Below, one piece after another: positions 43,125 through 49,847 of a stretch of 64,000 nt of DNA (position 1 is the first letter of the stretch; each line of letters begins with the position of its first letter). The DNA comes from Ignavibacterium sp. (lineage in GTDB: Bacteria; Bacteroidota; Ignavibacteria; Ignavibacteriales; Ignavibacteriaceae), in contig JANWVQ010000091.1 in the NCBI GenBank assembly GCA_025056745.1, forward strand, positions 1 to 64,000. The letters run 5' to 3'. The translations under genes were made by a program, and so were the position numbers. The notes beneath the pieces were generated by a model. It saw only the letters and a program-made list of their open reading frames with translations, made no database searches and had not been told where the DNA came from.

Positions 43125-44785
43125 AGAAGAAACTTGTTTTAATGTTATTTGTAGTTTCTGCTGGGAAAATTTTTTCACAATTTGAGCAACAATTTTACCT
43201 TGACTCGCTTTTTATTCATTATGTTTTTATGAGAACTTCTCAAAATCTTAGTGAATCGCCTATTAAAATATCTCCTGAACAAAAAAAATGTGGATTTAAC
43301 CTTGCTGCAAATGTATTTATTAACTTTGAAAAGTTTAATTCATATCAAAAATCCATCTTAAAAAAATTATTGCAAAGACCAATAACAGACACAAGTTTTA
43401 TCTCGCCATCAGGATTTTTTAGAATTCATTTTAATAAAACAGGTCCTGATGCTCCAGCTTATTCATTAAATCAATTAGCTAATGCCTTAGATTCTGTTTA
43501 TAAGTATGAAGTTACATTCCTTGGTTATCCTCCTCCGCCACCTGATAATGGAATGGGGGGAGATAACAGATTTGATATTTACATAACAAATCTTGGTTCT
43601 GATTACTATGGCTTCACACAGCCCGAATACTCAATCGGTAATAACAGATTTACTAGTTATACAGTAATCGACAATGATTATATTGGCTATCCAACATCAG
43701 GTATCAATGGAGCTAGAGTAACTGTCGCTCACGAATTTCATCACGCAATTCAAATAGGAAATTATATTTATAGAGAAGCCGATATTTTTTACTATGAAAT
43801 TTCATCTACTGCGATGGAAGAATTCGTTTTTGATGATATTAATGATTATTATTACTATATGACAGATTATTTCAATAATCCTTCTAGACCAATTATTCTT
43901 AACAATGGATATAACTTAGCAATTTGGAACATTTTTCTTCAACAAAATTTTGGGCATCAGTTGTTAAAAAGAATTTGGGAATTGATGCCAAATCACAGAG
44001 CTTTAACTGCAAATTATTTAGCATTAAATGAAAGAGGAACAAGTTTTGGTGAACAATTTAATAAATTCGGTTTATGGAATTATTTTACAGGATACAGAAG
44101 TATTCGTGGAAAATTTTATGATGAAGCTGAGAATTACCCGATTATAAAAACCTCCAACCCAATGCCGTTTAATCCTCCATCAAGAGTTTATTCTATGAGC
44201 AGTAAAGCAACGACAAACTATTATTTGAAAATTAACTCTGGCTTAGATACTCTTGTAGTTATTATTTCTAATTCTGATGTTGTGAATGGAATCGATAGTA
44301 CTAATAAAGTTTTTTCATTTAATTACAATCTATATAGCGATACATCCAGAGGCACAAGAAAATTAGGTGGAATCTTTTCAGCAGATTTTGATTCGCCGTA
44401 TCAGAATTTTTTTAATGTTTCTGAAATTTTGAATAATATGATAATCATCGGCGACTCTAACTTATTTCCCACAAGAAATAATAGAGAATTATTCGCTTTC
44501 CCGAACCCATTTAGTTTTAATAAAAAATATTTTTATGGTGAATATCTGAATATTCAAATAAATAATGTCTTATTTGATGAAATCTTACTAAATGTGTTTT
44601 CTTCGTCAATGCAGTTGATTTTTAGTAACTATTTAAAGTTGATGTTCCTACCTAATGGTTCAAAAGGTGTTAAATGGGATTTGAGAGACAATAATGGTGA
44701 ACTTGTTTCTTCTGGAGTTTATTTTATTACTGTAAAAATTGGCGAGAAGGTTTTAAGAGATAAAATTGTTGTTCTTTATGAGTAA
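43121..44785 (+). CDS. Secreted putative zinc metalloprotease (MXAN_6640-like) with C-terminal sorting-like domain
   Basis: VTVAHEFHHAIQIGNY (HExxH), DNRFDIYITNLG; C-terminal FAFPNPFSFNKK...VKWDLRDNNGELVSSGVYFITVKIGEKVLRDKIVVL. Confidence 0.8.
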   Translation: MKKKLVLMLFVVSAGKIFSQFEQQFYLDSLFIHYVFMRTSQNLSESPIKISPEQKKCGFNLAANVFINFEKFNSYQKSILKKLLQRPITDTSFISPSGFFRIHFNKTGPDAPAYSLNQLANALDSVYKYEVTFLGYPPPPPDNGMGGDNRFDIYITNLGSDYYGFTQPEYSIGNNRFTSYTVIDNDYIGYPTSGINGARVTVAHEFHHAIQIGNYIYREADIFYYEISSTAMEEFVFDDINDYYYYMTDYFNNPSRPIILNNGYNLAIWNIFLQQNFGHQLLKRIWELMPNHRALTANYLALNERGTSFGEQFNKFGLWNYFTGYRSIRGKFYDEAENYPIIKTSNPMPFNPPSRVYSMSSKATTNYYLKINSGLDTLVVIISNSDVVNGIDSTNKVFSFNYNLYSDTSRGTRKLGGIFSADFDSPYQNFFNVSEILNNMIIIGDSNLFPTRNNRELFAFPNPFSFNKKYFYGEYLNIQINNVLFDEILLNVFSSSMQLIFSNYLKLMFLPNGSKGVKWDLRDNNGELVSSGVYFITVKIGEKVLRDKIVVLYE

Positions 44786-45413
44786 TTATAAACTGGAGAT
44801 AAAAAATCTTTCAAAAATTTTTGGGCAAAGAATAATTTTTCAAAATATAAATTATTCAATTCATTCAAACTTTGTTTTGGGTATCTCAGGAAGCAATGGC
44901 TCTGGAAAATCAACTTTAGTAAAAATTATTGCAGGTGTTCTATCTCCAACTAAAGGCCATGTCAACCATTTTGTTAATGGTGAAAAAATTGATTATGAAA
45001 AGTTATTTAATTTTATTGGATTTGTATCACCATATCTAATTTTGTATGAAGAATTCTCAGCTGAAGAAAATTTAAAGATAATTTCTAAAATCAGAGGAAT
45101 AAAATACGAAGCAGAATATATTAAAGAACTTTTAGCGAAAATGAATTTGTATAGTAGAAGAAAAGACATTGTAAAAACATATTCATCCGGAATGAAACAA
45201 CGTTTAAAATTTATTTTCGCTCTAATGCATAGACCAAATCTTTTAATTTTAGATGAACCAACTTCAAACTTGGATAACGAAGGTAAAGAATCAGTTTATT
45301 CAATTATTAAGGATTATTCACTAAAGAACATTGTAATTATTGCTTCAAACGAGGAGCAGGATTTAGCTCATTGCAATGAGATATTATTTTTAGAAAAATA
45401 TAAATCACAATAG
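44778..45413 (+). CDS. ccmA: Heme exporter ATP-binding protein CcmA
   Basis: ABC ATPase (GSNGSGKSTLVKIIAGVLSPTKG, YSSGMKQRLKF, LLILDEPTSNLD) immediately before ccmB; ATG 44778. Confidence 0.88.
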   Translation: MSNYKLEIKNLSKIFGQRIIFQNINYSIHSNFVLGISGSNGSGKSTLVKIIAGVLSPTKGHVNHFVNGEKIDYEKLFNFIGFVSPYLILYEEFSAEENLKIISKIRGIKYEAEYIKELLAKMNLYSRRKDIVKTYSSGMKQRLKFIFALMHRPNLLILDEPTSNLDNEGKESVYSIIKDYSLKNIVIIASNEEQDLAHCNEILFLEKYKSQ

Positions 45414-45416
45414 TAG

Positions 45417-46082
45417 ATGTTTCAAAAATCATATAACATTTTTATAAAAGATATTAAGTCAGAGCTTAGAACAAGATATGCAATTAATGCTTTAGTTATG
45501 TTTATTTTGGTTGCAATAAGTGTTATACTTTTCTCAATAGGTAATGAAAAAGTAAATTCTGATTTGACTGCTGGTCTATATTGGGTTGTGATTTTCTTTT
45601 CTGCTATGAGTGGCCTTTCTCGTGCTTTTGTAGCTGAGGAAGAGAAAGGAACTAACCTTACTTTGCAATTAATTGCTTCTCCAGATACTGTTTTTACAGG
45701 AAAACTGATATTTAATCTTATATTGACTTTTTTTATGAATATTGTTATTACTTTTCTATATAGTGCTTTTTTTGAGAGTTTTTATATAAAAAATCCTGCT
45801 TTATTTATTTTGACATTCGTTCTTGGCAATATCGGATTAGCAATTTCATCAACAATCATAGCTTCGATCATAGCAAAAGCTGGAGCGAAAGGAACTTTAT
45901 ATCCAGTTTTATCTTTTCCAATTTTATTACCATTGATTTTAACTTGTGTGCAATTAACAATTTTTAGTTTTGATGGCACTAACTTTGAGTCAGTCTTTTA
46001 TGAGTTGTCAATTGTTGTTAGTTATAATATTATTATGATAACAGTTTCATATCTTTTATTCGATTTTATTTGGAAAGATTAA
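45417..46082 (+). CDS. ccmB: Heme exporter permease CcmB
   Basis: Six TM segments, FIKDIKSELRTRYAINALVMF, SRAFVAEEEKGT...LQLIASPDTVFTGKLIFN. Confidence 0.9.
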   Translation: MFQKSYNIFIKDIKSELRTRYAINALVMFILVAISVILFSIGNEKVNSDLTAGLYWVVIFFSAMSGLSRAFVAEEEKGTNLTLQLIASPDTVFTGKLIFNLILTFFMNIVITFLYSAFFESFYIKNPALFILTFVLGNIGLAISSTIIASIIAKAGAKGTLYPVLSFPILLPLILTCVQLTIFSFDGTNFESVFYELSIVVSYNIIMITVSYLLFDFIWKD

Positions 46083-46084
46083 AT

Positions 46085-46786
46085 ATGTATTGGAAAATAA
46101 TTTTATTTGTCTTAATGACTTTCGTCTCAATAGCGGGAATAGCATTCCCAATAGTTGAAAAACCAAGCGCTTGGTATGAATTTCCATTTATTCCCGGTCT
46201 TGAAGAAAATGCAAAAATTATCTTTTTCCACGTCCCAACTGCTTGGTTGGCTGTAATAGCATTTTTGATGGCTTTTCTTTATAGTATCAAATATCTCAGG
46301 TCAAAAAACATTAATGACGATATAAAAGCTTATGTTGCTAACCAACTTGGAATTATTTTCTGTATTCTTGCTACAGTTACGGGAGCAGTATGGGCAAGAT
46401 TTGCTTGGGGTGCATTTTGGAGTTGGGATCCTCGTCAAACAAGTATTTTTGCTTTGCTTTTAATATACGGTGCTTGGTTTGCTCTAAGATCTTCAATTGA
46501 ATCAGAAGAAAAAAGAGCAACTCTTTCTTCAGTTTATTCTATAATAGCTTTTTTTACAGTGCCATTTTTTATTTTTATTATGCCTCGAATAATGACAGGG
46601 TTACATCCCGGCTCTGCTGATGATGAAACTTCAGGACCAATTGTTAATTTTAAGATGAATGAAAATATGCTCCTTGTATTTTTTATATCGCTGATTGCAT
46701 TTACAATTCTTTATTTCTGGATGTGGAACTTAGGTTATAAATCAATAATTTATAAAGATAAATTGAACAAAAAACTTCTGAGGTAA
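46085..46786 (+). CDS. ccmC: Heme exporter protein CcmC
   Basis: Multi-TM with WWD-type motif WGAFWSWDPRQTSIFALLLIYGAWFALR and IFFHVPTAW. Confidence 0.93.
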   Translation: MYWKIILFVLMTFVSIAGIAFPIVEKPSAWYEFPFIPGLEENAKIIFFHVPTAWLAVIAFLMAFLYSIKYLRSKNINDDIKAYVANQLGIIFCILATVTGAVWARFAWGAFWSWDPRQTSIFALLLIYGAWFALRSSIESEEKRATLSSVYSIIAFFTVPFFIFIMPRIMTGLHPGSADDETSGPIVNFKMNENMLLVFFISLIAFTILYFWMWNLGYKSIIYKDKLNKKLLR

Positions 46787-46789
46787 ACC

Positions 46790-46939
46790 GTGTTAGATTT
46801 TTTATCTAAAAATGCAATTTACATTGTAATGATAATTGTCCTGATTGTTTGGACAGGAATTTTCTTTTATTTACTTGGAATGGATAGAAGAATAAAATCA
46901 ATTGAACAAGAATTGAAAGGAGAAAAAAATGAAGAATAA
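46790..46939 (+). CDS. ccmD: CcmD-like single-TM protein (absent from ORF track)
   Basis: GTG start, VLDFLSKNAIYIVMIIVLIVWTGIFFYLLGMDRRIKSIEQELKGEKNEE*; one TM plus charged helix, between ccmC and ccmE, overlaps ccmE start. Confidence 0.78.
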   Translation: MLDFLSKNAIYIVMIIVLIVWTGIFFYLLGMDRRIKSIEQELKGEKNEE

Positions 46940-47321
46940 GTACCTATTTGGTGGAATTATTATCGTTTTATTTTTAGGAATAATGGGTTATTTATTTACC
47001 CAAAGCAATATAAAATATGAAAATAATTTTTCCATCGTTAAAGCTTCTCATAAAACCGTCAAAGCAACTGGTAGTTGGGTAAAGGAAAAACAATACTCTT
47101 ATGATGCAGAAAATAATTTGTTCAAGTTCTATATAAGAGATGATAAGGGTGAGGAAATGTTGGTAGTCTATAAAGGAGCAATGCCTAATAACTTTGAATC
47201 TGCAACAAGTGTAGTAGTTACTGGCTCTTATCAGGATAATTATTTTTACGCAAAGGAAATTCTAACAAAATGTCCAAGCAAGTATCAAGAACAAACTGCA
47301 ACCCAATCATCGAGTTTGTAA
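46929..47321 (+). CDS. ccmE: Cytochrome c maturation protein CcmE, C-x-x-x-Y variant
   Basis: N-terminal TM, OB-fold-like SWVKEKQYSYDAENNLFKFYIRDDKGEEMLVVYKGAMPNNFESATSVVVTGSYQDNYFYAKEILTKCPSKY. Confidence 0.88.
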   Translation: MKNKYLFGGIIIVLFLGIMGYLFTQSNIKYENNFSIVKASHKTVKATGSWVKEKQYSYDAENNLFKFYIRDDKGEEMLVVYKGAMPNNFESATSVVVTGSYQDNYFYAKEILTKCPSKYQEQTATQSSSL

Positions 47322-47361
47322 TATAGTTAATTTTATTTTTCTTTAATTCTTAGGAGAATTT

Positions 47362-49764
47362 ATGATTGGAAGTATCATTTTGACATTCGCATTAGTTTTT
47401 AGCATAATTTCGATGATAATGTATTACTTAAATTTCAGAGGATATAATAATACATTATCCTATGCAAGAATCTTTTATCATTTGACCTCAATATTTGTAA
47501 TAGTTGCTTCGACATTTCTATGGTATTACATACTCACTCATCAATATCAGTATAAGTATGTTTTTAGTTATAGTAATAATTCACTTTCAACGGGACTTCT
47601 GTTCTCCTCATTTTGGGGTGGGCAAGAAGGAAGCTTTATGTTATGGATTTTATTTACTGTAATTATTGGAGTCATTTTACAATCTTATTCTTCAAAAAGG
47701 GGTGATTTAGAACCAAGAGTGATGACAGTTTTTACACTCGCCACATCTTTCTTGTTATTAATGGTTTCTCCTTGGTTAAAGAATCCTTTCGAATATATTT
47801 GGACAACACCAATATTTGTTGATTTAAAGTCAATAAATTCAAATTACTTAAATCTACCTTTTTTACAATCATTTTTATTCCCTGATCCACAAACAGGAAC
47901 AACTTACGTTCAAGTATCATCAACATTATTAGCCTCTTTGGTTCAGAATGGAATTGATCCAAATACATTTATAGTTAATGGTAGAGGATTAAATCCACAA
48001 TTATTGAATTTTTGGATGCAAATTCATCCTCCGATTCTTTTCGTTGGATTTTCTATGGCAACTGTTCCTTTTGCATTTGCTGTTTCAGCTTTAATGAAAA
48101 ATGAATATAGAGATTGGGTTAGTCAATCATTTCCTTGGTTATTGGCAGGAACTGGGATTTTAGGTTTAGGAATAATGCTTGGGGGTTATTGGGCTTATGA
48201 AATGCTTGGTTGGGGAGGTTATTGGGCTTGGGATCCTGTTGAAAATTCAAGTTTAATTCCTTGGCTTATCGGTGTTGCAACTATTCATACAATGCTTGTT
48301 CAAAAAAGAAGTCAAATGCAAAGCGAAGGAAATGGTAGATATGTCAAAACTAATTTAATTTTAAGTATTCTCGTCTATATACTCGTATTATACAGCACAT
48401 TTTTAACACGCAGTGGAGTTCTTGGAGATGCCTCAGTTCATTCTTTTGTTGATCCTGGTATGCTTGTCTACCTATTCCTGATAATTTTCATCGGTTCATT
48501 TACATTACTTGGAATTGGCTTGATAATTTACAGATGGAAAGAACTACAATCTGAAATACCTCAAGATGAAAGTCTTCTCTCCCGAGAATTATCTTTATTC
48601 ACTGCTGCAGTGGTTTTGTGTGCTTCTGCAATAATAGTTTTTGTTGGGACGTCAGCTCCAATAGTTGGTCGTTCGGTTGATATTTCTTTTTATAATGAAA
48701 TGCACGTTCCTTTAGCTATCATAGTTGGTTTGTTGAATGGATTAAGTTTATTACTGAAATGGAAAACTACTTCTACTCAAGAATTATTAAGTAAGTCCGT
48801 CATTTATTTAGCTGTAAGTGCCGTTCTTACAGTTTTGATGATTTTGATCGGTGGAGTAAATGATATAATGATGATTTTACTTTCATTCTCAGCAATTTTT
48901 ACTATAATAGTTAATGGAGAAATTGCTATAAAAATAATAAAGAATAACTTTGACAAACTAGGTGCTTATGTAGCTCACATTGGATTAGCAATTTTTATCC
49001 TCGGTGTTATTGGTTCTTCTGCTTATAGTAAGGAGAAGACTTTGAATTTAGTTAAAGGTAAACCGGTTGAAGCTTTCGGATATCAAATGGTTTTCACAGG
49101 TTATCAACCAATTGAGAATGCAACTAAGTATGCATTTAACATAAGTATGAGTAAAAATGGTAAAACTTATAATGCTTCACCTGTGATGTATATTGCTGAA
49201 TATAACAATAGTTTAATGAGAGAGCCTTCAATTGTTGTATTGCCTACTAAAGATATTTATATAGCTCCATTAAGTTATGAAGAAAAAGATGGTCATTCTC
49301 ACGCGGGGTCAATTAATATTGAAAAGGGGAAATCTGTTGAATTTGAAAATATTAAATTAACCTTTGATAAATTTGAAATGGATTCAGATGTAATGAAGGC
49401 TATGCAAGAAGGTAGAGATTTTCAACTTGGTGCAGTAATGTTAGCAGAGTCAAATGGAAAAACTTATCAATTTAAGTTATTCAGGAAACAAAAAGGCTCT
49501 GAGGTTGAATTTACATCATTTGAATCTAAAGAATTGAATCTTCGAGTAGAGCTTTTGAATTTATCAGCTCAAGGAGTTGAACTTTCAATATCAAGATTAG
49601 ATCAACCAAAAGAAATTGTGAAAAAAGAATCTCAAGAAGTTTTAGTAGTAAATGCAAGTATCAAACCATTTGTCAGCCTAGTTTGGATTGGAGTTTTGGT
49701 ATTGGTAATTGGATTTTTTATATCATTCAGCAGAAGATTGAAAGAATCGCACAATAGTGATTAA
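47362..49764 (+). CDS. ccmF: Heme lyase CcmF/NrfE family
   Basis: About 800 aa multi-TM, WGGQEGSFMLW, WGGYWAWDPVENSSLIPWL WWD motif. Confidence 0.94.
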   Translation: MIGSIILTFALVFSIISMIMYYLNFRGYNNTLSYARIFYHLTSIFVIVASTFLWYYILTHQYQYKYVFSYSNNSLSTGLLFSSFWGGQEGSFMLWILFTVIIGVILQSYSSKRGDLEPRVMTVFTLATSFLLLMVSPWLKNPFEYIWTTPIFVDLKSINSNYLNLPFLQSFLFPDPQTGTTYVQVSSTLLASLVQNGIDPNTFIVNGRGLNPQLLNFWMQIHPPILFVGFSMATVPFAFAVSALMKNEYRDWVSQSFPWLLAGTGILGLGIMLGGYWAYEMLGWGGYWAWDPVENSSLIPWLIGVATIHTMLVQKRSQMQSEGNGRYVKTNLILSILVYILVLYSTFLTRSGVLGDASVHSFVDPGMLVYLFLIIFIGSFTLLGIGLIIYRWKELQSEIPQDESLLSRELSLFTAAVVLCASAIIVFVGTSAPIVGRSVDISFYNEMHVPLAIIVGLLNGLSLLLKWKTTSTQELLSKSVIYLAVSAVLTVLMILIGGVNDIMMILLSFSAIFTIIVNGEIAIKIIKNNFDKLGAYVAHIGLAIFILGVIGSSAYSKEKTLNLVKGKPVEAFGYQMVFTGYQPIENATKYAFNISMSKNGKTYNASPVMYIAEYNNSLMREPSIVVLPTKDIYIAPLSYEEKDGHSHAGSINIEKGKSVEFENIKLTFDKFEMDSDVMKAMQEGRDFQLGAVMLAESNGKTYQFKLFRKQKGSEVEFTSFESKELNLRVELLNLSAQGVELSISRLDQPKEIVKKESQEVLVVNASIKPFVSLVWIGVLVLVIGFFISFSRRLKESHNSD

Positions 49765-49787: not shown

Positions 49788-49847
49788 GGCTGCCTCAAAG
49801 TTTTAAGAAGTTTATAAACAAATTGAATTTTGAGACAGCCTTTTTTT
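49788..49847. terminator. Terminator hairpin between convergent ccmF and kamA
   Basis: GGCTGCCTCAAA ... TTTGAGACAGCC (one mismatch) followed by T7; A tract also present inside/left side for the minus direction. Confidence 0.7.

Follow-up and report, generated by a model that had tools for sequence, protein, structure and literature searches.

In System I* of cytochrome c maturation, the heme chaperone is CcmE*; the system was described in 2006 (Allen), works in Escherichia coli (Goddard, 2010) and was reviewed in 2011 (PMC3601427). CPSKY is the commonest motif of bacterial CcmE*, seen in deltaproteobacteria, Chloroflexi and Firmicutes (PMC3601427). Loss of CcmH does not define the system, because CcmH is kept in roughly a third of the bacteria that have CcmE* (PMC3601427). 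In E. coli, CcmE carrying the H130C substitution binds heme but does not pass it to CcmFH (PMC9084895, citing Goddard 2010 among others).

The window, which is the whole 64,000-nucleotide stretch of Ignavibacterium sp. DNA that was analysed, contains a ccmABCDEF operon at positions 44766-49764 of the forward strand, with genes that almost abut. Pfam and TIGRFAM profile matches bear out the order ccmA-B-C-D-E-F given in the original prediction, and the features are as follows.

44766..45413, + strand: ccmA, heme exporter ATPase, 215 aa (ABC_tran, 7.5e-26)
45417..46082, + strand: ccmB, heme exporter permease (PF03379 CcmB, 1.2e-19)
46070..46786, + strand: ccmC, heme-handling WWD protein that loads CcmE (PF01578, 3e-23; TIGR01191, 3.8e-28)
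46790..46939, + strand: ccmD of the CcmD_alt type, 49 aa (PF20077, 1.4e-5; TIGR04391, 8.3e-12, above cut-off)
46929..47321, + strand: ccmE*, heme chaperone, 130 aa (PF03100, 2.8e-17)
47271..47285, + strand: CPSKY heme-binding motif, ccmE codons 115-119 (invariant columns C115-Y119)
47362..49764, + strand: ccmF, heme lyase/synthetase, 800 aa (PF16327, 6.6e-32; PF01578, 1.8e-23)
49252..49659, + strand: additional periplasmic beta domain in CcmF, approximately residues 631-766 (alignment, phmmer end point and modelled strands)
about 49788..49847, + strand: intrinsic terminator, GC-rich stem-loop followed by a run of seven T (fold, -18.6 kcal/mol)

The ccmA gene starts with TTG, the first ATG lying at 44778. 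Its product scores 101 bits with TIGR01189, under the cut-off of that model, and its identity is also given by synteny, with ccmBCDEF alongside in relatives. CcmC has the sequence WGAFWSWD and the HVP and LHPG histidines, matching those of E. coli CcmC. The operon ends at a terminator, as had been claimed: the stem-loop and T-run, which were found by folding and have a loop size that escapes a simple terminator scan, give a z-score of -3.9 that was equalled by none of 200 shuffles, and the next gene, lysine-2,3-aminomutase-like, is convergent. None of ccmG, ccmH and ccmI is present within kilobases around the operon.

CcmE scores 63.3 bits with PF03100 (cut-off 24.6). The open reading frame ends ...EILTKCPSKYQEQTATQSSSL, with KCPSKYQEQ at the C-terminus, and the tail EILTKCPSKYQEQ agrees with the earlier reading of 46929-47321 as a C-x-x-x-Y CcmE. 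The HxxxY motif of canonical System I is replaced by CPSKY; the same script that was applied to the relatives reads HDENY in E. coli CcmE. C115 is the sole cysteine of the protein, and the columns from C115 to Y119 are invariant in a 37-sequence alignment. The AlphaFold model comprises one transmembrane helix (residues 3-26) and an OB fold (pLDDT 87), with the motif placed where the flexible tail begins. The PDB matches are all CcmE structures (8ce8, 1lm0, 1j6q, 1sr3 and 2kct), and the nearest of them include CcmE of Desulfovibrio vulgaris (2kct).

The original prediction had left to be checked whether the variant is fixed across relatives. In the phylum sample, CcmE was read from 130 distinct genomes, and every one of the 130 has CPS[KR]Y. 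The motif also occurs in all 80 of the named loci taken from the genome collection, which were partly retrieved by a pattern that contains it. The cysteine is not a chance substitution, since it is invariant both in the alignment and in the 130 genomes, and the variant is no isolated case, being the form of each CcmE that was read in the phylum. CcmE was found in 253 of 396 phylum genomes. The closest named relatives of the window genome belong to Ignavibacterium and are 86-87% identical; the ccm locus is ordinary for its lineage.

In two class-mates, at loci L186 and L193, the motif is CPSRY. Seven other loci of class-mates have a second CcmE-like open reading frame directly downstream of CcmE (L027:441-800 (-), L039:1081-1458 (-), L176:5289-5642 (+), L179:4640-5041 (-), L184:4609-5034 (-), L192:5272-5664 (+) and L202:4594-4974 (-)). 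These products have a transmembrane anchor and an OB-like region and wholly lack the C/HxxxY tail, and a conserved GHxHxG...PYxHxxxV/I stretch forms the C-terminal end of six. They are possibly CcmE paralogues that would bind heme non-covalently.

The whole genome (2,738,233 bases in 185 contigs, 99.83% complete) was searched with profiles, family by family. A single PF03100 match was obtained, so that the genome has one CcmE and no second copy with HxxxY. CcmH gave no PF03918 match at E<=1 anywhere in the genome, in searches that are blind to a non-homologous substitute for CcmH or CcmI. An LRCxxC scan around all ccm loci returned E. coli CcmH and evident chance open reading frames only. The absence of CcmI is read from the surroundings of the operon, TPR repeats not being diagnostic. 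With a CPSKY CcmE, a complete ccmABCDEF, a CcmF that keeps its heme-handling residues, and neither CcmH in the genome nor CcmG in the operon, the locus has the hallmarks of System I*, and we consider it very probable that it serves cytochrome c maturation in that way.

From these sequences and from the described systems, a pathway can be proposed. CcmABCD would carry heme to the periplasmic face and load it covalently on C115 of CcmE*, with Y119 as the probable axial ligand. The holo-CcmE*, a membrane-anchored OB-fold chaperone, would hand the heme to CcmF, which would join it, without CcmH, to reduced CXXCH apocytochromes, namely the subunits of ACIII and the cbb3-type oxidase, NrfA and multiheme proteins. 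The CXXCH thiols are probably held reduced by ResA/TlpA-like thioredoxins fed by DsbD, and a cysteine-free beta domain of CcmF may assume the apocytochrome-positioning part of the role of CcmH. Covalent heme on the CcmE cysteine and CcmH-independent ligation are inferred by analogy with the work on Desulfovibrio desulfuricans and Methanosarcina acetivorans (PMC3601427, PMC9084895).

A cryptic CcmH-like protein encoded away from the operon, comprising a zinc ribbon, a transmembrane helix and two CcmH-like domains, might instead perform the function of CcmH. Proteins with PF03918 matches of up to 34.6 bits do occur in relatives from this order and family. In the window genome, however, there is no PF03918 match, and matches to the cryptic protein cover the zinc ribbon only (profile positions 16-134 and 20-62 of 287). 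Full-length copies are sparse, at about a dozen in 392 genomes, and the gene in relatives has neighbours that look metal-related by eye rather than ccm genes. For the window genome this alternative is largely refuted, and we regard it as very unlikely.

Across the 396 phylum genomes no ordinary CcmH was recognised, and PF03918 matched in 11. Nine of these matches are CcmH-like-domain proteins, mostly with a zinc ribbon and a transmembrane helix. The match at L049, a weak one to a histidine-kinase-like open reading frame, was rejected as CcmH, and the eleventh is a weak match to a 689-aa open reading frame. The CcmH-like-domain proteins lie at L041, L042, L043, L044, L045, L046, L047, L048 and L050 (match near 1200-2100 in each), belong to Ignavibacteriales and mostly have one or more zinc ribbons, a transmembrane helix and two CcmH-like domains (CxCxxC...CxC). 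Their neighbours, as judged by eye, include heavy-metal-binding-domain-like products and FtsX-like permeases, and ccm genes are not adjacent.

It is similarly improbable that the genome has an ordinary System I whose ccmG, ccmH and ccmI have merely moved elsewhere. Two secreted thioredoxins of the ResA/TlpA type are indeed encoded, at L003 (WCKPC) and L006 (WCPPC), and the latter shares 28% identity with E. coli CcmG. Both, however, score best with ResA and fall under the DsbE/CcmG cut-off; the genome has no CcmH; and CcmE is of the cysteine type, which in the E. coli H130C protein binds heme and cannot pass it to CcmFH (PMC9084895). A 599-aa DsbD is also encoded, so the reduction of apocytochrome thiols has a plausible source, and the ResA/TlpA proteins together with DsbD may provide a CcmG-like activity from outside the operon. 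The original prediction of a system without CcmG and CcmH consequently stands in full for the operon and, for CcmH, throughout the genome; since the ResA/TlpA proteins could act as CcmG, 'no CcmG' holds for the operon and not for the chemistry of the genome.

No CXXCH protein is encoded within the window. Elsewhere, the genome encodes CcoO and CcoP of a cbb3-type oxidase, ACIII-type subunits, NrfA and multiheme proteins in which the CXXCH motif occurs up to 13 times, all names except NrfA having been assigned by eye from sequence. The detected proteome of Melioribacter roseus, a relative, includes CcmF, which is listed with the proteins upregulated aerobically; ACIII and a soluble monoheme cytochrome c are also described for that organism (PMC5492636). 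The least credible explanation, that the operon is vestigial or serves some other purpose such as heme export while System II matures the cytochromes c, could draw on a third Cytochrom_C_asm protein in the genome, but that protein is HemX-like and adjoins hemA, the operon is intact and conserved across the phylum with invariant catalytic residues, and the genome is rich in CXXCH proteins. The HemX-like gene (G000:C96:94126-94743 (-), locus L010) shares its contig with the ccm operon and is easily mistaken for CcsA; as it encodes the only non-Ccm Cytochrom_C_asm protein, the search of that family argues against a CcsA/System II synthetase.

In the favoured System I* reading, CcmF would act without CcmH. 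Its best match, both by sequence (1e-56) and by fold, is Thermus thermophilus CcmF (PDB 6zmq), and the four histidines (H173/H261/H303/H491, E. coli numbering) and the WWD aspartate are invariant in 129 sequences. The protein is 800 aa long, compared with 647 aa in E. coli. In the 129 aligned sequences, the segment between the motifs that read DLYAAL and YKPFVRW in E. coli has a median length of 136 residues, against 20 in E. coli itself, so that nearly all System I* relatives examined have an extra domain of about 130 residues that, in the alignment, is not in E. coli or Thermus CcmF. The phmmer match to Thermus CcmF stops at residue 644 of the window protein, just short of the extra domain, which the match leaves uncovered. 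The segment is beta-stranded in the structure model (pLDDT mostly 70-88) and lacks cysteine in 127 of the 129 sequences. Plasmid-borne proteobacterial CcmFs among the matches listed end by residue 647; the comparators for the domain are E. coli, Thermus and proteobacterial sequences only. The domain is also found in Chloroflexi loci, several of which have a ResA-type gene downstream, and it therefore tracks the System I* lineages in hand and not the loss of CcmG.

Besides E. coli, only L175 has a short segment (29 residues) among the 129 sequences. Its CcmF (L175:5339-7402 (+)) is 688 aa long and has seemingly lost the extra beta domain, while its CcmE is still CPSKY; the domain can thus be lost and is not a strict requirement. 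A duplication inside the CcmF beta domain is not proposed, its sequence signal being weak (one of 300 shuffles was as good).

We speculate that the extra domain is a candidate stand-in for the non-redox role of CcmH. The broader proposal is that System I throughout the phylum generally takes the form of System I*, and that its CcmF has gained a second periplasmic beta domain, free of cysteine, which would replace CcmH in positioning apocytochromes, making CcmF* a stand-alone synthetase; taken as a whole, it is tentative and rather doubtful. On the way in which CcmF dispenses with CcmH, it offers a testable idea. In annotating genomes of this phylum, System I is to be read as System I*, and absent ccmG and ccmH are not to be taken for assembly gaps.

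The interpretation is essentially correct but not new: the window operon is an additional case of a system already described. No report of System I* in Ignavibacteria or Bacteroidota was found in the searchable literature, outside which subscription papers mostly lie; the known variant pathway of heme attachment is here extended to a whole phylum for which that literature does not list it. The likeness to the variant of sulfate reducers and archaea, in another lineage, holds as predicted, with a CPSKY CcmE, CcmH absent, CcmG missing from the operon and the remaining genes complete. The E. coli System I shares with the window the ccmABCDEF order, the OB-fold CcmE and the CcmF histidines and WWD motif, and differs in its HxxxY CcmE, in the presence of CcmG and CcmH, and in a 647-aa CcmF without the extra beta domain. 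The streamlined Ccm of Methanosarcina acetivorans (PMC9084895) likewise has a CXXXY CcmE and no CcmH; however, it has no CcmD and its CcmF is split into CcmF1/F2, whereas the window has CcmD and a single 800-aa CcmF. The experimentally studied System I* involves CcmI (PMC3601427), of which the window operon shows none. System I* of Desulfovibrio belongs to a different phylum, yet it has a CPSKY CcmE, CcmABCDEF without CcmG or CcmH, and CcmD, as in the window.
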